A stretch of DNA of 64,000 nucleotides, taken from contig OY720344.1 in the NCBI GenBank assembly GCA_963082975.1, positions 76,558,053 to 76,622,052 on the forward strand, read 5' to 3'. The translations under genes were made by a program, and so were the position numbers. Under the pieces are notes generated by a model, which was not told the origin of the DNA, made no database searches, and was given only the letters and a program-made list of their open reading frames with translations. The DNA is from Labia minor. Lineage: Eukaryota > Arthropoda > Insecta > Dermaptera > Spongiphoridae. This document shows positions 29,926 to 62,824 of the stretch, piece by piece. Every line of letters starts with the position of its first letter. The first letter of the stretch is position 1.

Positions 29926-29960
29926 TATATAAATGAAAGGTTGGAATCGGCGTGTTCAGT
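29926..29960 (+). promoter_or_regulatory. TATA box and arthropod initiator of the MBF2-like gene
   Basis: TATATAAA at 29926-29933 is followed by TCAGT at 29956-29960. The A of TCAGT (29958) lies 30-32 bases after the TATA box, the usual arthropod TATA-to-initiator spacing. Transcription starting there gives a 5' leader of about 26 bases and excludes the upstream ATG at 29933. Confidence 0.7.
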
Positions 29961-29983
29961 CTGGTTTTAGTGATCGAATCGCC

Positions 29984-30325
29984 ATGCATCGTCTCGTCGT
30001 TTTCCTCGTCGTGTTGGCGGCTGTTTTTGTCGTCCATGGCCAACAACACAATTTAATCATCGGGCAACGGTCACCTGGTGATTTTAATTTACTAAGAAAA
30101 CAGGTGTTTCATGATTCGTCGATATTAAGGGTGGTGGAAACCGATCTCGCTTACCATGGCACTAGCTATATCACATTTATCAACGCCACCGACATGCATA
30201 CCGATGACGATGGTAAAACACCAGCAATCACATCCGGAGGACTCGGTGAGAGAAGCGTCAACATCCACTTCAAGTCCAAACGGGGACACACCATTAATTT
30301 TTTAGTTGAAATTTATGGACGATGA
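29984..30325 (+). CDS. MBF2-family small secreted protein
   Basis: It encodes a 113-residue protein. The first 19 residues, MHRLVVFLVVLAAVFVVHG, are a textbook signal peptide. The mature part starts QQHNLIIGQRSPGDFNLL and ends with GGLGERSVNIHFKSKRG and INFLVEIYGR. HNLIIGxRxxGD at the start and GGxGxxxVxxxFxSxRG with a final IYG are the marks of the insect MBF2 family. Its founder was described as a transcription co-activator, but most members are secreted, often salivary or haemolymph proteins. An in-frame ATG at 29933 would add 17 residues, but it lies upstream of the predicted transcription start and would bury the signal peptide. Polyadenylation signals follow at 30380 and 30391. The frame is unbroken and intronless, with codons far richer in GC than the flanks. 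Its exact role is unknown. Confidence 0.85.
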   Translation: MHRLVVFLVVLAAVFVVHGQQHNLIIGQRSPGDFNLLRKQVFHDSSILRVVETDLAYHGTSYITFINATDMHTDDDGKTPAITSGGLGERSVNIHFKSKRGHTINFLVEIYGR

Positions 30326-35493: not shown

Positions 35494-35586
35494 AAATTTT
35501 AAATTTAAAAAATTTCTTGTAATTAATTAATATTTATTTTAATACAGATATATATTGTGCATAAATTCAATTTTTATCAACTAATG

Positions 35587-38500
35587 CAGTGGTTCTTAAA
35601 CTGTGGTCCGCGGACCCCTGGGGGTCCGCGAAGCCTTTACTGGGGGTCCGCGGTCCTCGGAAAAAAATCATCGTAAAAATATATACATATATAAATATTT
35701 AAAGTTCATTGTTTAACTATATCCTCCTAGAGAATTACGGCTATAATTTAATACTATTAATAATACTATTTTATTTTATTAAATTGATAATTATGTCAAT
35801 TAATTTTTTGTGAATAAATAAACATATATAAAAAACTATATATAAAATTTGAATTTTCATCCATTCATTCATTTAAAATCATTTTTCGATTGTTCCTTTA
35901 AAATAACCCCTCTTAGGGGCTCGGAAGGGGAGGCATATAAGGGAATTTTCTTTCACTTTGTTATTGGGGAAAACCAGGGGAGGGGACAGTCTTACCCGGA
36001 AAAACCCAAATTGTCAGCGTCCACTCTGGGGTTTTAAACAGTTTTAAAGCAAATGTTAATTATAAGTTCATTTCTCAACGAGTTGTATCTTTAAATTATT
36101 TTTATTAATTTAATTAATTATAATTAAATTATAGCTAATAATAGTTTATTATAGCTAATAATTTTTTTTAATTTTTAGTGTAATTTGCATGATCATTATT
36201 TTATAAAAACACTAAACACATTTTGCAATTTCCCTGAAAGGCTGTTTTTGAGAGTAAGTATAAGTTAGTTTTATGAATAAAAAATATTTATTTTAATAAT
36301 ATTTTAGAATCAAATTACGAAATTAATAATATTTTAGAATCAAATTACGAAATATATTTATTATATAAATTAATATTCATTTAAAATGATATTAAATCAT
36401 TTATTTAAAATGATTTAAAACATTTATTAAAATGATTTAAAACATTCATTTAAAATGATATTAAAACATTCATTTAAAATCATATTAAAACATAGCTAGT
36501 AAATAATAATTCGTTATATTTATATTATATTTATATTATATTTATATTATTGTAGTTCAATGTTAATAAATTACTCCATAAAATGGATCGTTGGCTACAA
36601 ACTGGTTCAACACAGAAACGGAAAGAATCAGATGATGAGGCATCAACAGCAAACTCTACCAAGAAACGCAAAACTAGAAAATATTCGGATGATTATTTAT
36701 CATTTGGATTTACTTATATTTGCAACAATGATGTGGAAAGACCAGTCTGCGTTCTATGTCAGGAAAGTTTATCCAATGAAAGTATGAAACCTGCTAATCT
36801 CAGACGTCATTTACAAACAAAGCACAGCGAGCATGTTAGTAAGTCTATCGAATTTTTTAAAATGAAAAAAGAAGAACTTAATTCAAGTCAGAAATTGATG
36901 GTAAAGACGGGATCTGGTGGTATGAGTAAGAAAGCAGTAATGGCATCATATGAAGTAGCTCTACTTATTGCTAAAGCAGGAAAGCCGCATAATATAGCAG
37001 AGCAATTAATTCTTCCTGCTACAAAAGTAATTACAAATATAATGTTAGGAACTAAAGCAGCAAACGATATAAATTTGATTTCATTATCAAATGATACGGT
37101 TAAGAATAGGATTGAAGACATGTCATGTAATATAAAAGAAGAATTAATATCGAGAGTGCGCAAAAGTCACTATTACTCATTACAATTGGATGAAAGTACT
37201 GATGTCACTAATAATGCCAATTTGTTAGCTTTCATTAGATATGAGTTTGAAAATCAAATACAAGAAGATGTATTGTTTTGTGATTCACTACCTTCACGAA
37301 CGACAGCTAATGACATATTTAACAGTTTGAATAATTTTATAACCGAAAATGAAATAGAGTGGCCAAAATGTGTTGGAATTTGCACTGATGGTGCTCGTGC
37401 AATGTCAGGTACAAGAACTGGATTGATTGCTCTTATTAAAAATGTTGCGCCTCAGGTTGTTTGGAATCATTGCTGCATTCACAGAGAATCATTAGCAGCC
37501 AAAAATATGTCACCAGATTTGAAAAGAACATTAGACGAAGTAGTTAAAATTGTCAATTTCATTAAGGCTCGTCCACTTAATTCCAGAGTTTTTAAAATTT
37601 TGTGTGAGGAAATGGGTAGTCAACATACACATTTATTATTACATACAGATGTACGTTGGTTGTCCCGCGGGAAAGTACTCATTCGCCTTTTTGAGCTTCG
37701 AGATGAAATACGATTGTTTTTAATAGATGCGCATTTTGAACTGACCGAATGTTTCAATGATTTTATCTGGTTAGCTAAGGTGGCTTACTTGACTGATATT
37801 TTTACAAAATTGAACGAACTTAATTTGAGCCTGCAAGGTACTGTTGTAAATATATTTAAAGTTGAAGATAAAATAGAAGCAATGATTAAAAAAATCGACT
37901 TGTGGTCGAAACGCATCCAGAACGGTGTATATGAGTCTTTTCCAACTCTCAATGATTTCATAGAAAGCTCCAGTGAAAAATTGCTTAATCAAACGCGTCA
38001 ATTATTTGTTGAACATTTAATTACTTTGAAAAGCAACTTCAGGAAGTATTTTTCTACTCCTGATCCTTGCAATAACTGGATCAGAGATCCATTTAATATG
38101 GAAATTACAAATGCTAAACATTTATCTGCACCTGAACAAGATATTCTCGTGGAATTATCATGTGATACAACTTATAAACTAAAATTTAACAAAACTGAAT
38201 TGAGCAACTTTTGGTTACTTCTCAGGTCAGATTATCCTGCGCTTGCAAATAAAGCACTTCAACACTTGATTCCATTCTGCACAACATATTTATGCGAACA
38301 AGCTTTTTCGGTACTATTTTATATTAAGTCTAAATATAGAAACAAATTAAATGTAGAGCCGGATCTTAGATTAAAAGTTTCCAATATTAAGCCAGATATT
38401 GAGATTCTTGTTTCAAGAAAACAACTGCATACATCTCATTAAATATGTAAGTTATATTTAATGAGATAGATGCAGTTATTTTTTAAAATATTTCTTATTT

Positions 38501-38828
38501 AATATTTTCTGAAAAAAATTATAAAATATTTATATGAATTTAATGTAAGTACCCATTATAATTTGTGAGATTTGTTGCTATGACAATGTTTGTATTTTCT
38601 TTCTTCAATATTATAATTTCTAATAAAATGTGTTCTACAATATGCAAAAAAATCGTTATTCACCAATCACTGTTAGAAATATTCATCATATATCCTTGTC
38701 CTTATGAGATCGTAAGCCAGAAATTAATTAATAAAATGACGTAAAGTACCTAAAGTTGTGATGGGGGTCCGTCAAAAAAAATTTTTTCAAGTGGGGGTCC
38801 GTGGAGTACATAAGTTTAAGAACCTATG
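35587..38828 (+). mobile_element. Full-length hAT transposon, copy 1
   Basis: The element is 3,242 bp. Its terminal repeats are CAGTGGTTCTTAAACT and, inverted, CATAGGTTCTTAAACT. It is flanked by a perfect 8-bp target duplication AACTAATG (35579-35586 and 38829-38836). GC-rich subterminal GGGGGTCCG repeats occur at both ends, three on the left and two on the right. It has an uninterrupted transposase gene and a non-coding leader of about 1 kb with short tandem repeats (36293-36480). Copy 2 is the same, base for base, wherever I compared them. Confidence 0.97.
36583..38442 (+). CDS. hAT transposase (ZBED/ZMYM6-like), copy 1
   Basis: This 619-residue protein cuts out the element and inserts it, making 8-bp target duplications. 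Visible parts in order: a basic stretch KKRKTRK (27-33), probably a nuclear signal; a BED-type zinc finger with C56, C59, H76 and H81; a catalytic core with LDESTD (D203) and CTDGARAMSG (D269), followed by HCCIHRESLAAK (296-307); and a C-terminal dimerisation block YLCEQAFSVLFYIKSKYRN (catalytic E near 572) ending in LRLKVSNIKPDIEIL. All residues expected for activity are present and the frame is unbroken. The start was chosen because MDRWL precedes the zinc finger and matches the usual hAT start. Host-derived relatives exist, but the intact termini show this is a transposon gene. Confidence 0.95.
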   Translation: MDRWLQTGSTQKRKESDDEASTANSTKKRKTRKYSDDYLSFGFTYICNNDVERPVCVLCQESLSNESMKPANLRRHLQTKHSEHVSKSIEFFKMKKEELNSSQKLMVKTGSGGMSKKAVMASYEVALLIAKAGKPHNIAEQLILPATKVITNIMLGTKAANDINLISLSNDTVKNRIEDMSCNIKEELISRVRKSHYYSLQLDESTDVTNNANLLAFIRYEFENQIQEDVLFCDSLPSRTTANDIFNSLNNFITENEIEWPKCVGICTDGARAMSGTRTGLIALIKNVAPQVVWNHCCIHRESLAAKNMSPDLKRTLDEVVKIVNFIKARPLNSRVFKILCEEMGSQHTHLLLHTDVRWLSRGKVLIRLFELRDEIRLFLIDAHFELTECFNDFIWLAKVAYLTDIFTKLNELNLSLQGTVVNIFKVEDKIEAMIKKIDLWSKRIQNGVYESFPTLNDFIESSSEKLLNQTRQLFVEHLITLKSNFRKYFSTPDPCNNWIRDPFNMEITNAKHLSAPEQDILVELSCDTTYKLKFNKTELSNFWLLLRSDYPALANKALQHLIPFCTTYLCEQAFSVLFYIKSKYRNKLNVEPDLRLKVSNIKPDIEILVSRKQLHTSH

Positions 38829-38836
38829 AACTAATG

Positions 38837-38945
38837 TAATACCAAAATACCGGTATTTTTACATAAATACAGGTTTTTAATACCGGACAAAGATCGTCCG
38901 GGATCCCGGTATTCGGGATCCCGAGATCCCGGTATTGTAAGCCCT
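38837..38945. repeat. Repeat with 'CGGGATCCCGGTATT' motifs, interrupted by hAT copy 1
   Basis: TACCGGTATT, GGGATCCCGGTATTCGGGAT and CCCGGTATTGTAAGCCC are arranged as overlapping palindromes. The family looks like the end of a miniature element, and the left part of it may lie beyond the hAT insertion. No target duplication could be assigned. Confidence 0.45.
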
Positions 38946-39107
38946 ATTAACAATTAATAACTTCAATTCTTCTAATTTATTAAAAAGACCATTTATATTC
39001 CATTGGATAATCGAATTATGATTACTGCTACTATGCATAATTATTAATTATATATATATAAAAATAAAAATACGAAATATTTTTCTCTATGCCAAATTTT
39101 ATAATTT

Positions 39108-39250
39108 CTTTCTCTTTCAAATAAACAGGGCATTTTTAGAAAATGAGGGGTGATCCTTTTGACAATGGACACATTTCGGAGGGTTTTTACAAATTTTATA
39201 GTCATTTTTGTGATCCTTTTCACCACAAAAACCACATATATCAACCTTCG
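39108..39250 (-). pseudogene. LINE ORF1 (gag-like) second zinc knuckle region
   Basis: On the minus strand, ICGFCGEKDHKNDYKICKNP and KCVHCQKDHPSFSKNA include two CCHC-type knuckles (CxxC..H....C and CxxC..DH), as in ORF1 of Jockey/CR1-type LINEs. A frame change follows, and a remnant reading ERERNYKIWHREKY continues to about 39070. No start is present. Confidence 0.75.
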
Positions 39251-39253
39251 ACT

Positions 39254-39415
39254 TACAAGAACTGACTGTTACGACCCCGCTTATGATAATTACTTTTGAT
39301 ACCCCAACTCTAAACTTAAAGTGGGATATATTCTCTTAAATGTCAGGAAATATGTCCCACCACCTCTCCGTTGTTATCGCTGTCAACTTTTCAACCATGA
39401 GTGTTTTATTTATAA
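39254..39415 (+). pseudogene. LINE ORF1 (gag-like) first zinc knuckle region, inverted relative to its partner
   Basis: On the plus strand, TTPLMIITFDTPTLN, then KVGYILLNVRKYVPPPLRCY and RCQLFNHE. This is the conserved segment of LINE gag proteins just before and including the first knuckle (PxPLRCxxCQxxxH). It should be followed directly by the knuckles found on the opposite strand at 39108-39250, which makes a head-to-head inversion. Confidence 0.75.
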
Positions 39416-39420
39416 TAATA

Positions 39421-40400
39421 TCACTTTATTTAATTTCTTTTCCTTGTCTACATGTGAAATTACCAAGAATCGAAGCTGAGCGTTGATCTTGAGAATTTCA
39501 TGAAAAATAGCAAAACCGAAATATTTCCTAAGCCGTTTTAGAGATAGATATTCTTCATTTCCGAAGTGATATCCCAAATTTGCGAGGGATCTATACCCCT
39601 CTCACCCGACTCATCCATTTGGCGGCTTGCCAATGGAAATAGAAAATTAGTTTAATTATTTATATAATTTAAAATAATTAAATGTTAGTTTAAAAATAAA
39701 AATATTAATTAATTATTTTTTTAATTAATATTTGTTTAAAGATAAAAATTATAGAAAGTAAAATAGTTTAATAGAGAGGTTAGAAAAATGAGTAAAAGAT
39801 AAACTAGTTAGAGCGGAACACACACACCTCCTTCATGTTGAACGGCTAGTACTCGAATGTTATATTCAATACATTACTAAATATGTAGAATATTTAGATT
39901 TATAATTTAATTATAATATTTTAAATTAAAATTAATTATACACATATTATCAGAATTTTTAATGAAAAAAAATGTACAGTATAAAAATTAATATTATATA
40001 TTTGGCTATGTATTTCAATATTGACTGTTTTTTATTAAATATATTAAAAAATTGTTTTTTAAAAATATGAGTTATATTAAAAATTATTTACATTCTCTCT
40101 TTATATTTTTAATATATATTATATATAATAAAATTGCATGTTCATCATTGTAACAGATTGCGTGTTTGTCCGTAAGAATCATTCTTTGAAGTAAAAAAAA
40201 TACACATCAAATTAATTGAAAAAAATATCATGATCAAATTTTTCTTTTTTATATTATTTTGGAATTTGGTAATAATGATATTATTACCAATTTTTTCTAA
40301 TTAAATATATAAATTTATTATTTGTTTTATATACCAATAAATCAAAATATTATTGTTTTAATAATGTATTAATAGTAGCTCAATATTTCTTTTACTTTAT
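39421..40400. other. AT-rich stretch, no gene seen
   Basis: No element recognised. The segment around 39500-39620 has a more balanced composition without a usable frame. Confidence 0.5.
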
Positions 40401-41228
40401 TACTATCTCGCCAGTATTGCAATCACGAAAATTTTCGATTTTGATGTTTTTATAAGTTTTGAGAGTCCCTGAGTCATTTTCACTTAGGTTGAGAAAAATG
40501 TATGTCTGTCTGTGTATGTGTCAGCTTGATTCACTGAAAGTACTGGAATTTGGTACACGGGCATTATTCAAAATTCGTAGTTTTATATCAACTTTTGATA
40601 AATGTAGCTCAACCGGAAGAGGGTCATTACCTACCACGTTTTCATTTTTATTCCACAAAACTGACCGTAAAAATAAAGATATATGTTTGATAGTTTTTCA
40701 CATGATTAAAAATTGTATAAAAGTTGTATATTTAGAATTTCAACTTGATTCGCTGAAAATACTGGAATTAATTTTTTAAATTTTATAACACGTTGACTGC
40801 CATCACGCGCCAGCACGTGATGTGGTGACATCAACAACGAGCCAAACTCGCGCTGGTTTAATAAATATTATTTATTAATTTTAATTTATACTTTATAATC
40901 AATTAAATTTAATTTAAATATAATATAGGGTTTTTTATTAAATAAAAAACAGAGTGAATCTAATTATAAGTTTATTTCAAAAAAATGTAAGAAAAAGGTA
41001 CAAGTTAGCATTCGCTGAGCACTAGAAGCCAACTGACTGCAAGGCAAAATGGCGGTTGTCTCTAGCAGGAGATGGCGTCGCTCGACATCACGTAATTCTC
41101 CTGACTGCTCTGATTGGCACTGCTTAGCAACGGGGCAGACAGGTGGGGACAATCTTGGGCTTTAAATTCCTCTCCTACAATAATATAATTTATTCTAATT
41201 AATCCAATTCAAATTTGCGAGATAGTCG
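40401..41228 (+). mobile_element. 'ACTATCTCG' family miniature element, copy 1
   Basis: Starts TACTATCTCG and ends CGAGATAGTC, short inverted ends. The body has TGAGAAAAATGTATG with a TG-rich microsatellite, AACCGGAAGAGGGTCATTAC, and CACGCGCCAGCACGTG near the 3' side. Copies 2 and 3 are at 48192-48764 and 61597-62215. Unlike them, this copy carries about 250 bp of unrelated, GC-richer sequence at about 40930-41185. Confidence 0.8.
40930..41185. other. Foreign insert in the ACTATCTCG element
   Basis: Where copies 2 and 3 read straight on to TTAATCCAATTC, this copy has an extra segment including GGCAAAATGGCGGTTGTCTC and CTTAGCAACGGGGCAGACAG. The open frame on its minus strand is not protein-like. 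The target duplication is unclear (possibly AATATA). Confidence 0.5.
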
Positions 41229-41245
41229 AGAGGAGACACCCCAGA

Positions 41246-42355
41246 TTTTTTTTCATATACATTCAAAATTTAAATTTATTGTAATTTTTAGTTGTTTTAA
41301 GTGTCCTAAAAAATTAAAAATAGTAAAAATGACTAAACTATATTAAAATTGGCGTGCGTTCATACATGATATTAATTCAGTATTAAATATCATATATAAT
41401 CATAAAATAGATTTTATTTTTCATTAAAGTTCTATATGAATGATTATATCTTTTTAAATATCCTATAATATTCCAAGGATTAATAAATATTTAAATATAG
41501 TTTTATATATATATATTTATTAAATTAAAATACATTCAATACTAGATTTAAATTCATTTTTCCCAGGTGTGTTGTTTAGTGATAAATGAAAATCTTTTAT
41601 GAATATGAAAGGGCTATTTATGTTTTCCATTAAAATGCTTTTAGACAAGAATACATCCATTGAATGTATGATAATTCTTTCCCATCCCAATAGAATATTT
41701 AATCTTTCTTTGTTGTAAATTTTTCAATTATATCTATGGGATTATTTATTTATTTGTTTATATTTTAATCAATTTTAGTAATATACTTCATTTCTTGAAT
41801 TTCTATTAAATATACCATACTTCTATTTATATTTTAAAAAATAACTGCTTTTCTTTATTAAATTTGAATTTAATTTAAAAAATCAGGATAATATAATCTT
41901 TTATTTGTTTGCATGCACGTTCTTTTAAAACTTTTAAATAAACCAAATGAAAATATTAAATCATATAAGAAATATTTTTTTTTATTTTAAATAAGGAAAT
42001 ATTTTTTCTTCAAATCAGGATATTATAGAAAATCCATATTACGTACAATTTCTAATAAATAATTTAATAGAGGATTTTATATTTATAAAGATATGCATTT
42101 TTATTCTTTCTATAAATAATGAAAACCGTTTTTTATCAAATTTGAATAGTAATCTTATATCTTTAGTTCTATTGATGATGATTATTTCTATAAATTGTCT
42201 CATAAAAGAAAATGAAATGTTTAAAATCATAAATTGTCAATATATTGTTGTAGAAGTTAGTGTGTGAATTGTCATAAAACTAAAGAAATAATATTTTTTG
42301 AGATGAAATACCATTTAACTGGTGTCTATTTATTCGATTGACCCCAATGAATATT
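41246..42355. other. AT-rich stretch, no gene seen
   Basis: Nothing beyond simple A/T sequence was recognised. Confidence 0.55.
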
Positions 42356-42479
42356 TTAATGCAATAGTATATTATATTGAATTATCTGCACAGGATATAA
42401 CTGGAACACATTAATCTCTATAAAGTTAAACCGTTCGTTATGAAAATAGCTATTTGAAATAAACACTTTATTGAAACTG

Positions 42480-42890
42480 ATTATTTTTTTCTTTATTTTT
42501 TTATATCTACCAGGTGTAAAAGTATGAAACTTAATTTCTTTTGTAAAAATTGCACGTTTCAATTCGATCATTTGTTGTTGGATACCGGTTGTTAACGGTT
42601 TCGTCAAGTTTTAGTAGCTCATAATATATTAAATCCTTTGTTTACACTTTTTCGGTGGTTTCTCACGTCAAAATCATCACATTTAAATTTTTTAAACCAC
42701 TCAAAGCATTGTATTTTTTCAAGAGCATATTCAGAGTATGCTTCGACAAACATTCTATACGATTCTGAAGCAGTTTTCTTCAAATGATAGTCAAAAATCA
42801 ATGCTGTCCGCAAATCATAGTTCGTAGTCACAAAATTCGATAAGCGATAAGGAAATACCAGTTTCATAAATTCATACCTATGAATATGCC
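42480..42890 (-). pseudogene. Mariner transposase relic (DD34D-like), internally deleted
   Basis: Reading from 42867 leftwards, LRTALIFDYHLKKTASESYR, then VEAYSEYALEKIQCFEWFKK and KCDDFDVRNHRKS are the N-terminal helix-turn-helix of mariner transposases. From about 42590, TTGIQQQMIELKRAI corresponds to the segment just before the second catalytic aspartate. The first catalytic region between them and the whole C-terminus are missing. The left half of the downstream frame is not recognisable. Confidence 0.75.
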
Positions 42891-42903
42891 GGGTTAACTA
42901 CAG

Positions 42904-45900
42904 CAGTGGTTCTTAAACTGTGGTCCGCGGACCCCTGGGGGTCCGCGAAGCCTTTACTGGGGGTCCGCGGTCCTCGGAAAAAAATCATCGTAAAAATATA
43001 TACATATATAAATATTTAAAGTTCATTGTTTAACTATATCCTCCTAGAGAATTACGGCTATAATTTAATACTATTAATAATACTATTTTATTTTATTAAA
43101 TTGATAATTATGTCAATTAATTTTTTGTGAATAAATAAACATATATAAAAAACTATATATAAAATTTGAATTTTCATCCATTCATTCATTTAAAATCATT
43201 TTTCGATTGTTCCTTTAAAATAACCCCTCTTAGGGGCTCGGAAGGGGAGGCATATAAGGGAATTTTCTTTCACTTTGTTATTGGGGAAAACCAGGGGAGG
43301 GGACAGTCTTACCCGGAAAAACCCAAATTGTCAGCGTCCACTCTGGGGTTTTAAACAGTTTTAAAGCAAATGTTAATTATAAGTTCATTTCTCAACGAGT
43401 TGTATCTTTAAATTATTTTTATTAATTTAATTAATTATAATTAAATTATAGCTAATAATAGTTTATTATAGCTAATAATTTTTTTTAATTTTTAGTGTAA
43501 TTTGCATGATCATTATTTTATAAAAACACTAAACACATTTTGCAATTTCCCTGAAAGGCTGTTTTTGAGAGTAAGTATAAGTTAGTTTTATGAATAAAAA
43601 ATATTTATTTTAATAATATTTTAGAATCAAATTACGAAATTAATAATATTTTAGAATCAAATTACGAAATATATTTATTATATAAATTAATATTCATTTA
43701 AAATGATATTAAATCATTTATTTAAAATGATTTAAAACATTTATTAAAATGATTTAAAACATTCATTTAAAATGATATTAAAACATTCATTTAAAATCAT
43801 ATTAAAACATAGCTAGTAAATAATAATTCGTTATATTTATATTATATTTATATTATATTTATATTATTGTAGTTCAATGTTAATAAATTACTCCATAAAA
43901 TGGATCGTTGGCTACAAACTGGTTCAACACAGAAACGGAAAGAATCAGATGATGAGGCATCAACAGCAAACTCTACCAAGAAACGCAAAACTAGAAAATA
44001 TTCGGATGATTATTTATCATTTGGATTTACTTATATTTGCAACAATGATGTGGAAAGACCAGTCTGCGTTCTATGTCAGGAAAGTTTATCCAATGAAAGT
44101 ATGAAACCTGCTAATCTCAGACGTCATTTACAAACAAAGCACAGCGAGCATGTTAGTAAGTCTATCGAATTTTTTAAAATGAAAAAAGAAGAACTTAATT
44201 CAAGTCAGAAATTGATGGTAAAGACGGGATCTGGTGGTATGAGTAAGAAAGCAGTAATGGCATCATATGAAGTAGCTCTACTTATTGCTAAAGCAGGAAA
44301 GCCGCATAATATAGCAGAGCAATTAATTCTTCCTGCTACAAAAGTAATTACAAATATAATGTTAGGAACTAAAGCAGCAAACGATATAAATTTGATTTCA
44401 TTATCAAATGATACGGTTAAGAATAGGATTGAAGACATGTCATGTAATATAAAAGAAGAATTAATATCGAGAGTGCGCAAAAGTCACTATTACTCATTAC
44501 AATTGGATGAAAGTACTGATGTCACTAATAATGCCAATTTGTTAGCTTTCATTAGATATGAGTTTGAAAATCAAATACAAGAAGATGTATTGTTTTGTGA
44601 TTCACTACCTTCACGAACGACAGCTAATGACATATTTAACAGTTTGAATAATTTTATAACCGAAAATGAAATAGAGTGGCCAAAATGTGTTGGAATTTGC
44701 ACTGATGGTGCTCGTGCAATGTCAGGTACAAGAACTGGATTGATTGCTCTTATTAAAAATGTTGCGCCTCAGGTTGTTTGGAATCATTGCTGCATTCACA
44801 GAGAATCATTAGCAGCCAAAAATATGTCACCAGATTTGAAAAGAACATTAGACGAAGTAGTTAAAATTGTCAATTTCATTAAGGCTCGTCCACTTAATTC
44901 CAGAGTTTTTAAAATTTTGTGTGAGGAAATGGGTAGTCAACATACACATTTATTATTACATACAGATGTACGTTGGTTGTCCCGCGGGAAAGTACTCATT
45001 CGCCTTTTTGAGCTTCGAGATGAAATACGATTGTTTTTAATAGATGCGCATTTTGAACTGACCGAATGTTTCAATGATTTTATCTGGTTAGCTAAGGTGG
45101 CTTACTTGACTGATATTTTTACAAAATTGAACGAACTTAATTTGAGCCTGCAAGGTACTGTTGTAAATATATTTAAAGTTGAAGATAAAATAGAAGCAAT
45201 GATTAAAAAAATCGACTTGTGGTCGAAACGCATCCAGAACGGTGTATATGAGTCTTTTCCAACTCTCAATGATTTCATAGAAAGCTCCAGTGAAAAATTG
45301 CTTAATCAAACGCGTCAATTATTTGTTGAACATTTAATTACTTTGAAAAGCAACTTCAGGAAGTATTTTTCTACTCCTGATCCTTGCAATAACTGGATCA
45401 GAGATCCATTTAATATGGAAATTACAAATGCTAAACATTTATCTGCACCTGAACAAGATATTCTCGTGGAATTATCATGTGATACAACTTATAAACTAAA
45501 ATTTAACAAAACTGAATTGAGCAACTTTTGGTTACTTCTCAGGTCAGATTATCCTGCGCTTGCAAATAAAGCACTTCAACACTTGATTCCATTCTGCACA
45601 ACATATTTATGCGAACAAGCTTTTTCGGTACTATTTTATATTAAGTCTAAATATAGAAACAAATTAAATGTAGAGCCGGATCTTAGATTAAAAGTTTCCA
45701 ATATTAAGCCAGATATTGAGATTCTTGTTTCAAGAAAACAACTGCATACATCTCATTAAATATGTAAGTTATATTTAATGAGATAGATGCAGTTATTTTT
45801 TAAAATATTTCTTATTTAATATTTTCTGAAAAAAATTATAAAATATTTATATGAATTTAATGTAAGTACCCATTATAATTTGTGAGATTTGTTGCTATGA

Positions 45901-46145
45901 CAATGTTTGTATTTTCTTTCTTCAATATTATAATTTCTAATAAAATGTGTTCTACAATATGCAAAAAAATCGTTATTCACCAATCACTGTTAGAAATATT
46001 CATCATATATCCTTGTCCTTATGAGATCGTAAGCCAGAAATTAATTAATAAAATGACGTAAAGTACCTAAAGTTGTGATGGGGGTCCGTCAAAAAAAATT
46101 TTTTCAAGTGGGGGTCCGTGGAGTACATAAGTTTAAGAACCTATG
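42904..46145 (+). mobile_element. Full-length hAT transposon, copy 2
   Basis: It has the same 3,242-bp length, ends, leader and gene as copy 1, offset by exactly 7,317 bp with no insertion or deletion. It has its own perfect 8-bp target duplication AACTACAG (42896-42903 and 46146-46153), so it is an independent insertion and not a segmental duplication. The right-hand duplication overlaps the first bases of the Tc1 element. Confidence 0.97.
43900..45759 (+). CDS. hAT transposase (ZBED/ZMYM6-like), copy 2
   Basis: The 619-residue product is identical to that of copy 1, with the same BED finger (C56, C59, H76, H81), catalytic D203 and D269, and the CEQAFS dimerisation block. The absence of any amino-acid change between the copies, in a region full of dead elements, indicates very recent movement. 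Both genes could supply transposase to each other and to short derivatives sharing the ends. Confidence 0.95.
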   Translation: MDRWLQTGSTQKRKESDDEASTANSTKKRKTRKYSDDYLSFGFTYICNNDVERPVCVLCQESLSNESMKPANLRRHLQTKHSEHVSKSIEFFKMKKEELNSSQKLMVKTGSGGMSKKAVMASYEVALLIAKAGKPHNIAEQLILPATKVITNIMLGTKAANDINLISLSNDTVKNRIEDMSCNIKEELISRVRKSHYYSLQLDESTDVTNNANLLAFIRYEFENQIQEDVLFCDSLPSRTTANDIFNSLNNFITENEIEWPKCVGICTDGARAMSGTRTGLIALIKNVAPQVVWNHCCIHRESLAAKNMSPDLKRTLDEVVKIVNFIKARPLNSRVFKILCEEMGSQHTHLLLHTDVRWLSRGKVLIRLFELRDEIRLFLIDAHFELTECFNDFIWLAKVAYLTDIFTKLNELNLSLQGTVVNIFKVEDKIEAMIKKIDLWSKRIQNGVYESFPTLNDFIESSSEKLLNQTRQLFVEHLITLKSNFRKYFSTPDPCNNWIRDPFNMEITNAKHLSAPEQDILVELSCDTTYKLKFNKTELSNFWLLLRSDYPALANKALQHLIPFCTTYLCEQAFSVLFYIKSKYRNKLNVEPDLRLKVSNIKPDIEILVSRKQLHTSH

Positions 46146-46150
46146 AACTA

Positions 46151-47393
46151 CAGGGATTGGACAAAAATATGGAAACACTTTGTGAAACGCATGTTTGAAA
46201 AGAAAGAATGATTTTAATGAAATATATAAGCGCCGCTGGCGTTTTTGACTACTGACGCCACCTATACAACTTCGTAAATGTGCTAAACAGTTCTGTTGTT
46301 GTCGGAGTACTGTTATGTGAGGTTGTCAGAGTAAACAGACTTCGAACTTGGGCAAATTTTTGGAGCACGTACGGTATGTGCTTCCGTAAGCAAGGTAGCC
46401 GAGGTGTTTAGTATATCAAGAGGTACTGTATCGAAGATTTATTCTGTATATTTGAAAAGCGGAAAAACATCATCTGCTAAATCACAGCGCGGACGAAAGT
46501 GTGTCCTGAGTGATCGTGACAGACGTTCATTAACGGCAATTGTGTCGAAAAATAAGAAGACCACAGCTGCAAAAGTTACTGCTGAAATTAATGTTGTGTT
46601 ATCGAACCCCGTGAGTACCAAAACAAATAGAAGGGAGCTTCATGAACAGGGAATTGCTGGCCGTGCTGCAATTGAGAAGCCACTCACCAGTGATGCTAAT
46701 GCAAGTAACAGGAAAAGGTGGTGTTTAAGTCATAAATCCTGGACTATAGAGCAGTGGAAGCGAGTAATATGGTCTGACGAGTCTTCTTTCACATTGTTTC
46801 CCACTTCTGGACGAGTTTACGTCTGGAGAACGCCATCTCAAGCGTATCATACAGACAGCTTGTTGACAAGAGTGAAACATGGAGGGGGTTCTGTTATGGT
46901 TTGGGCAGCCATATCGTGGTTCTCTGCTGGCCCCATGATAACTGTGTCAGGGCACATGACTGACAAGACTTATGTGAACATTTTGGCCGATCAAGTTCAT
47001 TCCATGGTACAAACTTTGTTCCCCGATGGTGATGGTGTCTTCCAAGTCGACAAAGCCCCTGATCACACAGCTCACATTGTCCAGGACTGGTTTTCTGAGC
47101 ACGAGGATGAGTTTTCCCATCACAGTCACCAGACCTGAATATTATCGAACCTTTGTGGTCTACATTGGAACGGAAAGTGCGTTCATATTATCCACCGCCA
47201 ACATCGTTATCTGAACTTACCACCGTTTTGCAGGAAGAATGGTATAATATTCCCTTGGCAAACATATAGGAACTGTATTTATCCATTCCGAGAAGACTGC
47301 AAGGTGTTTTGGATGCCAACGGGTTTCCTACACCATATTAGGCAAAGAAACATGTTTTTTTAAAGGTATTTCCATATTTTTGTCCAACCCCTG
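46151..47393 (+). mobile_element. Decayed Tc1-type transposon
   Basis: It is 1,243 bp, with inverted ends CAGGGATTGGACAAAAATAT and, at the right, ATATTTTTGTCCAACCCCTG. TA lies on each side (46149-46150 and 47394-47395), as expected for Tc1/mariner. The transposase inside is broken. hAT copy 2 is inserted at its left edge. Confidence 0.95.
46317..47341 (+). pseudogene. Tc1 transposase pseudogene (DD34E type)
   Basis: From 46317 the frame begins VRLSE, a stop, TDFELGQIFGARTVCASVSK and VAEVFSISRGTVSKIYSVY, the paired-like helix-turn-helix DNA-binding region. VIWSDESSFTLF holds the first catalytic D, and FQVDKAPDHTAHIVQDWF the second (normally followed by N, here K). At about 47120 a small deletion shifts the frame: SPDLNIIEPLW, with the catalytic E, continues in another frame. 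A TAG near 47266 interrupts the tail before the natural stop at 47341. In total there are two nonsense changes and one frameshift, so it is inactive. Confidence 0.92.
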
Positions 47394-47395
47394 TA

Positions 47396-48190
47396 GTTCT
47401 TTATATTTAAATAATATTAATATAAAAAGTTACAATTATTTTGTTAAGTCTTGCTGATGTAGAACAATGACAATTGTATTTTTTACAGGCATTTCTAGTT
47501 TCTAGTTTTATTCTTATTTGTGATCCATATCTTGTCTTATCACCACGTATTCGATCTATCATTCAATGTCAAGATCGATTCGTTCTTCATTTTTTTTCCT
47601 CAATACTTTGTACATACAGACAGCTATAATCAAATAATCTAATAAAAAATCTTTCTTTTTCAATTCAGCTCAAAACTTGATAGATAACCTTGAAGAAGTA
47701 AAGATATTGATTGAAAGAAAATCGAAAGTGAAATTTGTTATCTAGAAATCATGAATATTAATTACTACATCATACATTTATTTCATTACTATCATAGCAA
47801 TGAATTATTTAAATACAAATACCTCATTTATGTTGCATTGATTCAGGAAAGAATGACAACAAATACAAATCTTATCTCAAAGACATTTGATCTAAAAAAA
47901 ATAAAAATAAATTTTACAATTTTTAATTACAACACGTTTATTTGTTTTGTTTTTTTTCACTTTATAACATTGTTGCCCAGGGATATTGGAAATTCTTTAT
48001 AATATTTTATTATTAACACGGTATAGTTTCATAGAGAGATAAAAATTAATAAATATTGTGAAAATTTATTATTATATATTATCTAAAAATTATCTGAAAG
48101 AAACTCAATTCTATTCTTTAAAAATAAATCAGTTTTTATTAATTTTGGTTAATGATTAGCTTCTACAACTATAAATAGTTTTTAACATTT
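47396..48190. other. AT-rich stretch, no gene seen
   Basis: No element or exon recognised. Confidence 0.5.
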
Positions 48191-48191
48191 T

Positions 48192-48764
48192 TACTATCTC
48201 ATAAGAGATAGTATTGCGATCACGAAAATTTTTGATGTTGAGATTTTGATGTTTTTATACGTTTTGAAGGTTCCTGAATCATTTTAACTAAGGTTGAGAA
48301 AAATGTGTGTGTGTGTGTGTGTATGTATGTAACCAAGACGCAAAAACGGTTTGAGCTAGAATGATAAAATTTGGTACATGGACATTATTCAAAATTCATA
48401 GTTTTCTATCAACTTTTGAGAAATGTAGCTCAACCGGAAGAGGGTCATTACCTACGTTTTGATTTTTTTCTTCTAAAGTGACCGTAAAAATAAAGATATA
48501 TGTTTGATAATTTTTCACATGATTAATAATTGTATAAAACTGCTATATATAGAATTTCAACTTGATTGAATCGCTGAAAGTACCAGAATAATTTTTTTAA
48601 CACTGCAAATCTCACGCGCCAATGACGTGGTGCCATCAACAAAGAGCCAAACATGCGCTTGTTTAATAAATATTATTTATTAATTTTAATTCATAATTTA
48701 ATTAATTTAATTTAATTTCAAATAATATATGTTATTTAATCCAATTCAAATTTGCGAGATAGTC
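48192..48764 (+). mobile_element. 'ACTATCTCG' family miniature element, copy 2
   Basis: Starts TACTATCTC and ends TTTGCGAGATAGTCC. It has a (TG)n run after GAGAAAAATG (48304-48322), GCTCAACCGGAAGAGGGTCA, and CACGCGCCAATGACGTGGTG. It is the shortest of the three copies and lacks the extra insert of copy 1. Confidence 0.8.
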
Positions 48765-61435: not shown

Positions 61436-61596
61436 AAATGGATTTAAATTTAATTTTATAAGAACTATAGTTGAGATGACAGAGAAACAAAAAAATTGTA
61501 AAAAGATCTAACCTTTTTAAAAATAATTAAAAAATATTTCTCTAATCATTAAAAAAAAAATGAAATCCTATTATGTCAATAAATACATAACTTTTT

Positions 61597-61706
61597 ACTA
61601 TCTCGTCAGAGATAGTATTGGGATTACAAAAATTTTCGATGTCGAAATTTTGATGTTTTTATACGTTTTGAAGGTCCCAGAGTCATTTTCACTAAGGTTG
61701 AGAAAA

Positions 61707-61750
<44 letters not shown>

Positions 61751-62215
61751 TTGTATGTAGACAAGATTACGCAAAACACTTTGAGCTAGAATAATGAAAT
61801 TTGGTACACGCCCATTATTCAAAATTCGTAGTTTTCTATCAATTTTTGAGAAATGTATCTCTTTCGGAAGAGGGTTATTTCTTACCACGATTCATTTTTT
61901 TCCTCTAAACTGACCTTAAAAAGAAAGATATATGTTTGATAGTTTTTCACATAATTAAAAATTGTATAAAACTGCTACGTATATTATATATAGAATTTCA
62001 ACTTGATTGAATGCCTAAAAGTACCGGAATTAATTTTTTAACAAGTTTACTGGCAATCACGCGCCAGCACGTGTCGTGGTGCCATCAACAAAGACCCAAA
62101 CACGTTCTGGTTTAAAAAAATATTATTTATTAATTTTAATTTATAATTTAATTAATTTTATTTAATTTAAATGTAATATATGTTAATTAATCCAATTCAA
62201 ATTTGCAAGATAGTC
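61597..62215 (+). mobile_element. 'ACTATCTCG' family miniature element, copy 3
   Basis: Starts TACTATCTCGTCAGAGATAG and ends at GCAAGATAGTCGAG. It has a (TA)n then (TG)n microsatellite (about 61710-61750) after GAGAAAAATG. It ends only about 110 bp before the splice acceptor of the transmembrane exon, so it sits inside an intron of that gene. Confidence 0.8.
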
Positions 62216-62326
62216 GAGTGGAGACAATTCCGATTTTTATATTTTACAATTGTATTAATTTTTCTAATGAGGTGTTTAAAATTTCTTTATATTTTAATCT
62301 ATATTTTGTTTTTTGTTTTTTATTAG

Positions 62327-62592
62327 AGTTGATGGCGGCACCGATTCCAAGTGAAGATGGCCCTCGGGACCGGACTAACAGCACCGACCCGGATCTCGAC
62401 CGAGATGAGGTGGCTTTGGTACGTGCTGAAGAGGCCCTCATTGTACTCCTCGTACTTCTTCTCTGGGTGGCCGCGATTGCTCTGTTCTTTAATCGGTGGG
62501 GTAAAATTCGAATGCTCGAGCCATATCAGCCAAAATTCCAGCAACAGCATCGGTCCAGTTGCCCGATGTTAGACATTGCCGTCCCACTCCAG
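62327..62592 (+). CDS. Coding exon with transmembrane segment, FNDC4/FNDC5-like
   Basis: The 266-base exon lies between a T-rich acceptor TTTTTTATTAG (ending 62326) and the perfect donor GTAAGT (62593). It enters one base into a codon and leaves at a codon boundary. The encoded part has an acidic outer stretch with an NST glycosylation site, a membrane helix EEALIVLLVLLLWVAAIALF, and a basic inner tail NRWGKIRMLEPYQPKFQQQ. The helix closely resembles the membrane segment of vertebrate FNDC4/FNDC5 (EVLIIVVVLxMWAGVIALF in outline), which suggests a single-pass fibronectin III protein. No fibronectin exon is visible in this window, so the assignment rests on the membrane region. GC content and codon use are far above the flanks, supporting a real exon. 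Confidence 0.7.
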
Positions 62593-62824
62593 GTAAGTTT
62601 TATTTATCTTTATCCTATATTTACCTAAAATAACAAAGAATGTATTATTTTATTATTTTATCCATAATTCTATAATTTATGAATTTTTTTTATTGAATAT
62701 AATATTACAGTTGATCTCTTTTATCATTTAATTTGCATAGAAATTATTTTTTACTTGAATTACTTTTGTCATCTTTATATTTATTGTTTTTTCATAGTAA
62801 AATCCAAACATATCTTATATATTA

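Follow-up and report, generated by a model that had tools for sequence, protein, structure and literature searches.

A probable Buster-type family of very young, autonomous hAT transposons present in about 1,500 copies in the genome of Labia minor

Introduction

Among DNA transposons, the autonomous copies are often outnumbered by short non-autonomous ones (PMC3942097). In Buster1, the long forms are given as 17, 3 and 3 copies in three species, with an average divergence of 8.22% for the 17, and the short derivatives number up to 270 (PMC4298943). For Mar of Drosophila, the target-site duplication (TSD) has the consensus nnnTAnnn, which is given as that of Buster elements (PMC3517528). Here we describe two hAT elements, designated as copies A and B, in a 64,000-nucleotide stretch of the genome of Labia minor (contig OY720344.1, hereafter C1; positions C1:76,558,053-76,622,052, forward strand), referred to below as the window, together with their relatives in the whole assembly (604 Mb, 71 contigs).

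Copies A and B very probably belong to a family of Buster-type hAT cut-and-paste transposons that is autonomous, very young and very large. The scale and youth of the burst are unusual and constitute its novelty; the mechanism and the kind of element are already known. A search by title found no report of a comparable hAT burst or of linked hAT transposition, which does not imply that none is in print.

Results

Two identical copies with independent target duplications

An initial annotation, made from the letters of the window, had described two sequence-identical 3,242-bp copies with identical 619-residue transposases and had taken their TSDs as the marks of two separate insertions. The first statement is confirmed and the second is supported. 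Base-by-base alignment of 35587-38828 (copy A) with 42904-46145 (copy B), 3,242 bp each, gave 0 mismatches, and the same 619-codon open reading frame (ORF) lies at 36583-38442 in copy A and at 43900-45759 in copy B. Each copy is flanked on both sides by a perfect 8-bp TSD, AACTAATG for copy A and AACTACAG for copy B. The window copies thus have both ends and an intact transposase ORF, as expected of autonomous elements. Their features are as follows.

35587-38828, plus strand: hAT element copy A, 3,242 bp, identical to copy B and recurring genome-wide
35579-35586, no strand: left TSD of copy A, AACTAATG, single in 7/8 fetched uninterrupted paralogous sites, one of them with a single-base change
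38829-38836, no strand: right TSD of copy A, AACTAATG, a perfect repeat of the left TSD
35587-35601, plus strand: left terminal inverted repeat (TIR) of copy A, imperfect, 13/15 match to the right end
38814-38828, minus strand: right TIR of copy A, partner of the left TIR
36583-38442, plus strand: transposase ORF of copy A, 619 amino acids (aa), with a BED-like zinc finger at about residues 52-84 and a putative C-terminal dimerisation region at 536-590
35605-35652, plus strand: three subterminal GGTCCGCG repeats at the left end, starting at 35605, 35623 and 35645
36052-36106, plus strand: 55-bp unit of the leader, present once in the window copies and twice in tandem in others (e.g., L016); a lineage marker
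42904-46145, plus strand: hAT element copy B, 3,242 bp, identical to copy A
42896-42903, no strand: left TSD of copy B, AACTACAG, a perfect 8-bp duplication
46146-46153, no strand: right TSD of copy B, AACTACAG; its TA at 46149-46150 doubles as the TA bordering a Tc1-like element
43900-45759, plus strand: transposase ORF of copy B, 619 aa, identical to that of copy A

The perfect identity of the two copies and their separation of only 7.3 kb would also suit a local segmental duplication or an assembly error in place of two transpositions. However, their TSDs are perfect but different, and flank identity ends 1 base beyond the left end and 5 bases beyond the right end, which argues that the copies are not a segmental duplication; the independent TSDs and flanks largely dispose of this part of the alternative. 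In addition, the site of copy A occurs uninterrupted in paralogous repeats, and the family has about 1,500 further copies. We regard duplication or misassembly as extremely improbable.

The uninterrupted sites were found with a query in which the 300-bp flanks of copy A were joined with one TSD. Matches spanning the junction were found at 13 other places; they started at base 1 of the query, in one case at base 23, and reached at least base 377. The target was single in seven of the eight paralogous sites fetched (six identical, one with a single-base change), and the eighth carried a small deletion at the target. Copy A was therefore inserted into an older dispersed repeat. For copy B, no undivided match to the joined site turned up elsewhere among the 40 matches scored of 739 candidates, so that its insertion is supported by its own TSD.

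Across the copies read, the 8-bp TSD was perfect in 21 of 22, in 12 of 12 of a second set and in L034; the exception, L021, has lost its 3' end. TA occupied TSD positions 4-5 in 32 of 33 cases (TA frequency of the window, 0.119), and C occupied position 3 in 19 of 33. The letters AACTA shared by the two window sites, which the initial annotation had offered as a hint of either a target preference or local hopping, are thus accounted for by the Buster-type TSD preference nnnTAnnn. They are no evidence for local hopping, because the first five letters agree in 27 of 528 TSD pairs.

About 1,500 near-identical, mostly long copies

A search of the whole genome for further copies and empty sites, which the initial annotation had proposed, yielded about 1,500 near-identical copies as well as the empty paralogous sites of copy A. 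The exact 41-bp 5' end matched 1,551 times, the exact first 87 bp of the ORF 1,477 times and the exact last 32 bp (3' end) 1,558 times, each with 0 matches to the reversed control. Recurrence of the ends and the ORF start about 1,500 times rules out a chance match. By arithmetic (about 1,500 copies at about 3.3 kb each), the family makes up about 5 Mb, or about 0.8% of the genome. In a protein search, all 71 scored matches were 100% identical and free of stops; this is a lower bound for the number of identical proteins, because 71 of 3,642 candidates were scored, all on C1. The remaining candidates may include different hAT families.

Smaller estimates were discarded. A family size of 37 came from a DNA search that skips common words and gives lower bounds, and the apparent 1.4-kb copies listed by the same search were full length where fetched; with the last 300 bp as the query it gave no match, presumably because common words were skipped. 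Likewise, the idea that the 3,242-bp form exists in only 8-9 copies was not borne out, since the form with a single 55-bp leader unit (single-55), whatever its total length, occurs 168 times genome-wide.

Intactness was sampled with the first 100 ORF starts on C1 (0.25-40.5 Mb). Seventy-seven lay exactly 2,246 bp from the 3' end, the distance in the window copies; 12 lay at 2,232-2,315 bp, seven had no exact 3' end within 6 kb and one, at 701 bp, revealed an internal deletion, a breakdown that accounts for 97 of the 100. The 2,246-bp distance was combined with an exact 5' end in 69 cases, and at least 26 of the 100 belong to the 71 fully identical proteins. Six of the 98 exact 5' ends in this region were without an exact ORF start, four having a 3' end at the full-length distance and two having none. 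No short miniature inverted-repeat transposable element (MITE) was recognised among these 98, a search that derivatives with altered ends would escape.

The full 619-aa frame was present in 31 of 34 copies read, which were taken mostly from the DNA-search listing and are not a random sample (24 of the 35 copies listed outside the window were fetched with flanks). The exceptions were a frameshift in L022, a 9-bp in-frame loss in L024 (616 aa) and a stop at codon 4 in L040; L034, read in addition, has 619 aa. A position-picked sample comprised nine usable copies from the list of exact 5' ends (L034 and L036-L043), with L033 and L035 set aside as off target. Both ends and the TSD were found in all nine and the 619-aa frame in eight, with a changed 3' terminus in L034 and a leader lacking about 0.6 kb in L039. 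Among 20 further copies, two were identical to the window pair: L010 at C1:76.49 Mb, some 100 kb from it, and L009 at C2:57.0 Mb.

Terminal repeats and transposase motifs

The TIRs, CAGTGGTTCTTAAAC and CATAGGTTCTTAAAC, match at 13 of 15 positions. When the right end of copy A was scanned in the same way as the left end for subterminal repeats, two 6-bp CGGACC motifs were found. The transposase contains, in order, D203, D269, C297-H300, R358-W359 and E572, which are candidates for the catalytic and structural hAT motifs (D, D, CxxH, RW, E).

A different hAT-type protein, L052, is encoded at C2:72054900-72057100 (636-aa open frame; Pfam PF05699, 79.6 bits) and may be either an intact second hAT or a domesticated gene. 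The transposase has its motifs in an order like that of L052, but the pairwise evidence is weak. One-against-one BLASTP aligned the transposase with L052 from the finger through RW (21% identity, E 5e-4) and matched the E region separately (E 0.017); for the same pair, phmmer gave no match and hhalign a probability of 1.2%. The transposase sequence had no match with E up to 1 among solved structures and only weak unrelated matches in NCBIfam, and no relatives were confirmed among 1 pattern match in viral contigs and 18 in prokaryotic ones.

Age of the burst

The mean pairwise difference among eight of the nine position-picked copies (L034 left out) was 0.21%, with a range of 0.06-0.40%. At an insect mutation rate near 3e-9 per site per generation, the burst is roughly a few hundred thousand generations old. 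A conserved 30-mer was found, with up to three mismatches, at 1,590 places, near the exact counts of the other patterns, and all of the 100 matches listed had 0 mismatches, in a listing possibly ordered by mismatch. No sizeable older layer within about 10% was visible at this one 30-mer site, which suits a recent founder. The family would have entered the genome through such a founder, possibly by horizontal transfer. The near-identity of about 1,500 copies and the missing older layer at the tested site place the recent activity suggested in the initial annotation on firmer ground than the window by itself could have provided.

Leader variants and local hopping

The leader contains tandem units of 55, 30 and 11 bp, the number of which varies between copies. 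Among 89 copies, the offset of the ATG was 1081 in 37, 1051 in 16 and 996, the value of the window copies, in 2. Two rare variants were examined for close pairs, with 100 copies listed for each. The 97 listed single-55 copies on C1, C2 and C4 formed 12 pairs within 25 kb, against 0.73 expected under uniform placement and 1.23 under random labelling, the latter based on overall clustering in one 41-Mb region; these pairs fall into 5 clusters (Poisson P 0.009, by a crude test). The 11-bp deletion form (198 copies) gave 11 pairs within 25 kb against 1.60 expected, in 7 clusters (P 0.0013, by the same test). The two sets share some copies, and their 25-kb clusters differ. Length variants can recur through slippage. 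Copies A, B and L010 are identical and all lie within about 110 kb. Taken together, linked transposition is supported but not proven.

A group at C1:61842124-61863704 holds four single-55 copies in 22 kb, two of them only 834 bp apart; these are possibly nested or rearranged.

The proximity of like copies could instead stem from local gene conversion, insertion hot spots or local duplication. Consistent with this, all 5' ends show mild clustering (14 pairs within 25 kb against 6.0 under uniform placement; C1, 0-41 Mb), some close pairs, separated by only 0.8-2.6 kb, may represent nested or rearranged insertions, and a label test over all variants, given below, was non-significant. However, the two rare variants cluster with their own kind beyond the overall clustering, and copies A and B differ in their flanks and TSDs. 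We consider such local processes an unlikely explanation.

Evidence on present activity

Several observations weigh against the reading of a young hAT family that is still active and hops locally. The PF05699 hAT dimerisation match had an E of 8.5e-4 and 19.5 bits against a cut-off of 21.4 (20.3 bits with the C-terminal 419 residues alone), and all three Pfam matches, to hAT dimerisation and BED-like fingers, fell below the curated cut-offs. A single-sequence structure model of the transposase had a mean predicted local distance difference test score of 34 and was too poor to use. The test over all length variants (C1, 0.25-40.5 Mb) reached significance at none of the distances between 15 and 250 kb (p 0.12-0.57); at 25 kb, like pairs numbered 3 of 11, against 2.27 expected (p 0.39). 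Finally, the distinct ORF changes comprised 18 non-synonymous and 3 synonymous ones, against 1,476 and 381 sites; these small numbers give no sign of purifying selection between copies, and many copies may be passive, since the changes look neutral.

Such neutral proportions would also be expected if the recent burst had finished, the family being silenced and its copies passive and drifting. All seven of the intact position-picked copies other than L034 are one residue off the window protein, L034 is two residues off, and L040 has its early stop. On the other hand, four of the 35 copies read are identical to one another and three of these lie in a stretch of about 110 kb, intact identical ORFs are many, and like variants still lie near one another. 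A finished burst is possible, though we lean against it; judged from its sequences, the family is probably still competent.

Neighbouring repeats and genes

Copy B adjoins the following element.

46151-47393, plus strand: Tc1-like element, a neighbour lying outside the hAT element; both of its ends are present, and it has a 244-aa ORF at 46404-47138

Most matches of other genomic Tc1-like copies start at the TA within the copy B TSD, and a few start 3-5 bases earlier. The initial annotation had described every other element of the window as decayed; the 244-aa frame is the next-longest ORF of the window after the hAT transposases. The Tc1-like family looks abundant (739 candidates with the joined copy B flanks, 40 scored), and its relatives, among the matches listed, are about 89-94% identical. 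Three diverged copies of a dispersed repeat lie in the window (40382-40938, 48174-48740 and 61588-62238; 75-81% between these copies), and the same repeat was seen near several other hAT insertions, with identity up to 90%. Elsewhere in the window, the ORF at 29933-30325 has an MBF2 domain (E 1.5e-22) and that at 62203-62628 has a DUF4808 domain (E 1.3e-30); the two domains point to an insect host or a near relative of insects.

Discussion

The strongest form of our reading, an ongoing invasion by an autonomous hAT caught early, with about 1,500 near-identical, mostly intact copies, many of them competent, at a stage when MITEs and decay are not yet common, and with individuals differing in many insertions, is a serious but tentative possibility. 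During multiplication of the family, the BED-finger transposase would bind the subterminal GGTCCGCG repeats and the TIRs, excise the element and insert it into an 8-bp target centred on TA, generating the TSD. Copy number would rise when the excision gap is repaired from the sister or homologue or, alternatively, through excision after replication, and some copies would re-insert no more than tens of kilobases from the donor. The length variants could stem from slippage in the course of repair, which would change how many tandem units of 55, 30 and 11 bp the leader holds.

A family of about 1,500 mostly long, largely intact copies with few short derivatives would permit direct tests of cut-and-paste multiplication, of the frequency of local hops and of the timing of host silencing. 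The leader-repeat variants could serve as natural lineage barcodes, and the family is a candidate for a naturally active hAT tool.

Hermes belongs to the Ac group of hAT. The present family resembles it in the N-terminal BED-like zinc finger of a hAT transposase and in subterminal repeats that are more important at the left end (PMC10368747), and departs from it in a TSD pattern that is Buster-like and in having no sequence match to any solved structure with E up to 1. With the BuT2/Tip group it shares the hAT type, an 8-bp TSD and a similar transposase length (643 aa in BuT2); however, BuT2 is described as having a five-exon gene and few full-length copies, whereas the transposase here is encoded by one uninterrupted ORF present at a very high copy number (PMC3942097).

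The TSD consensus nnnTAnnn is common to this family and Mar, but Mar is described as consisting mainly of MITEs, with a coding copy that was reconstructed, while the autonomous form is abundant here (PMC3517528). The likeness to Buster1 extends to the terminus (CAGTGGTTCTTAAAC here, CAGGGCTTCTTAAAC in Buster1), to G/C-rich subterminal repeats (GGTCCGCG here, TGGGTCGCG in Buster1) and to the insertion bias, which was used in that report to assign Buster1 to Buster (PMC4298943). The best reading of the TSD pattern and the resemblance of the terminus is that the family is a Buster-type hAT. It differs from Buster1, as described, in comprising about 1,500 copies, most of them long, with very few short ones.

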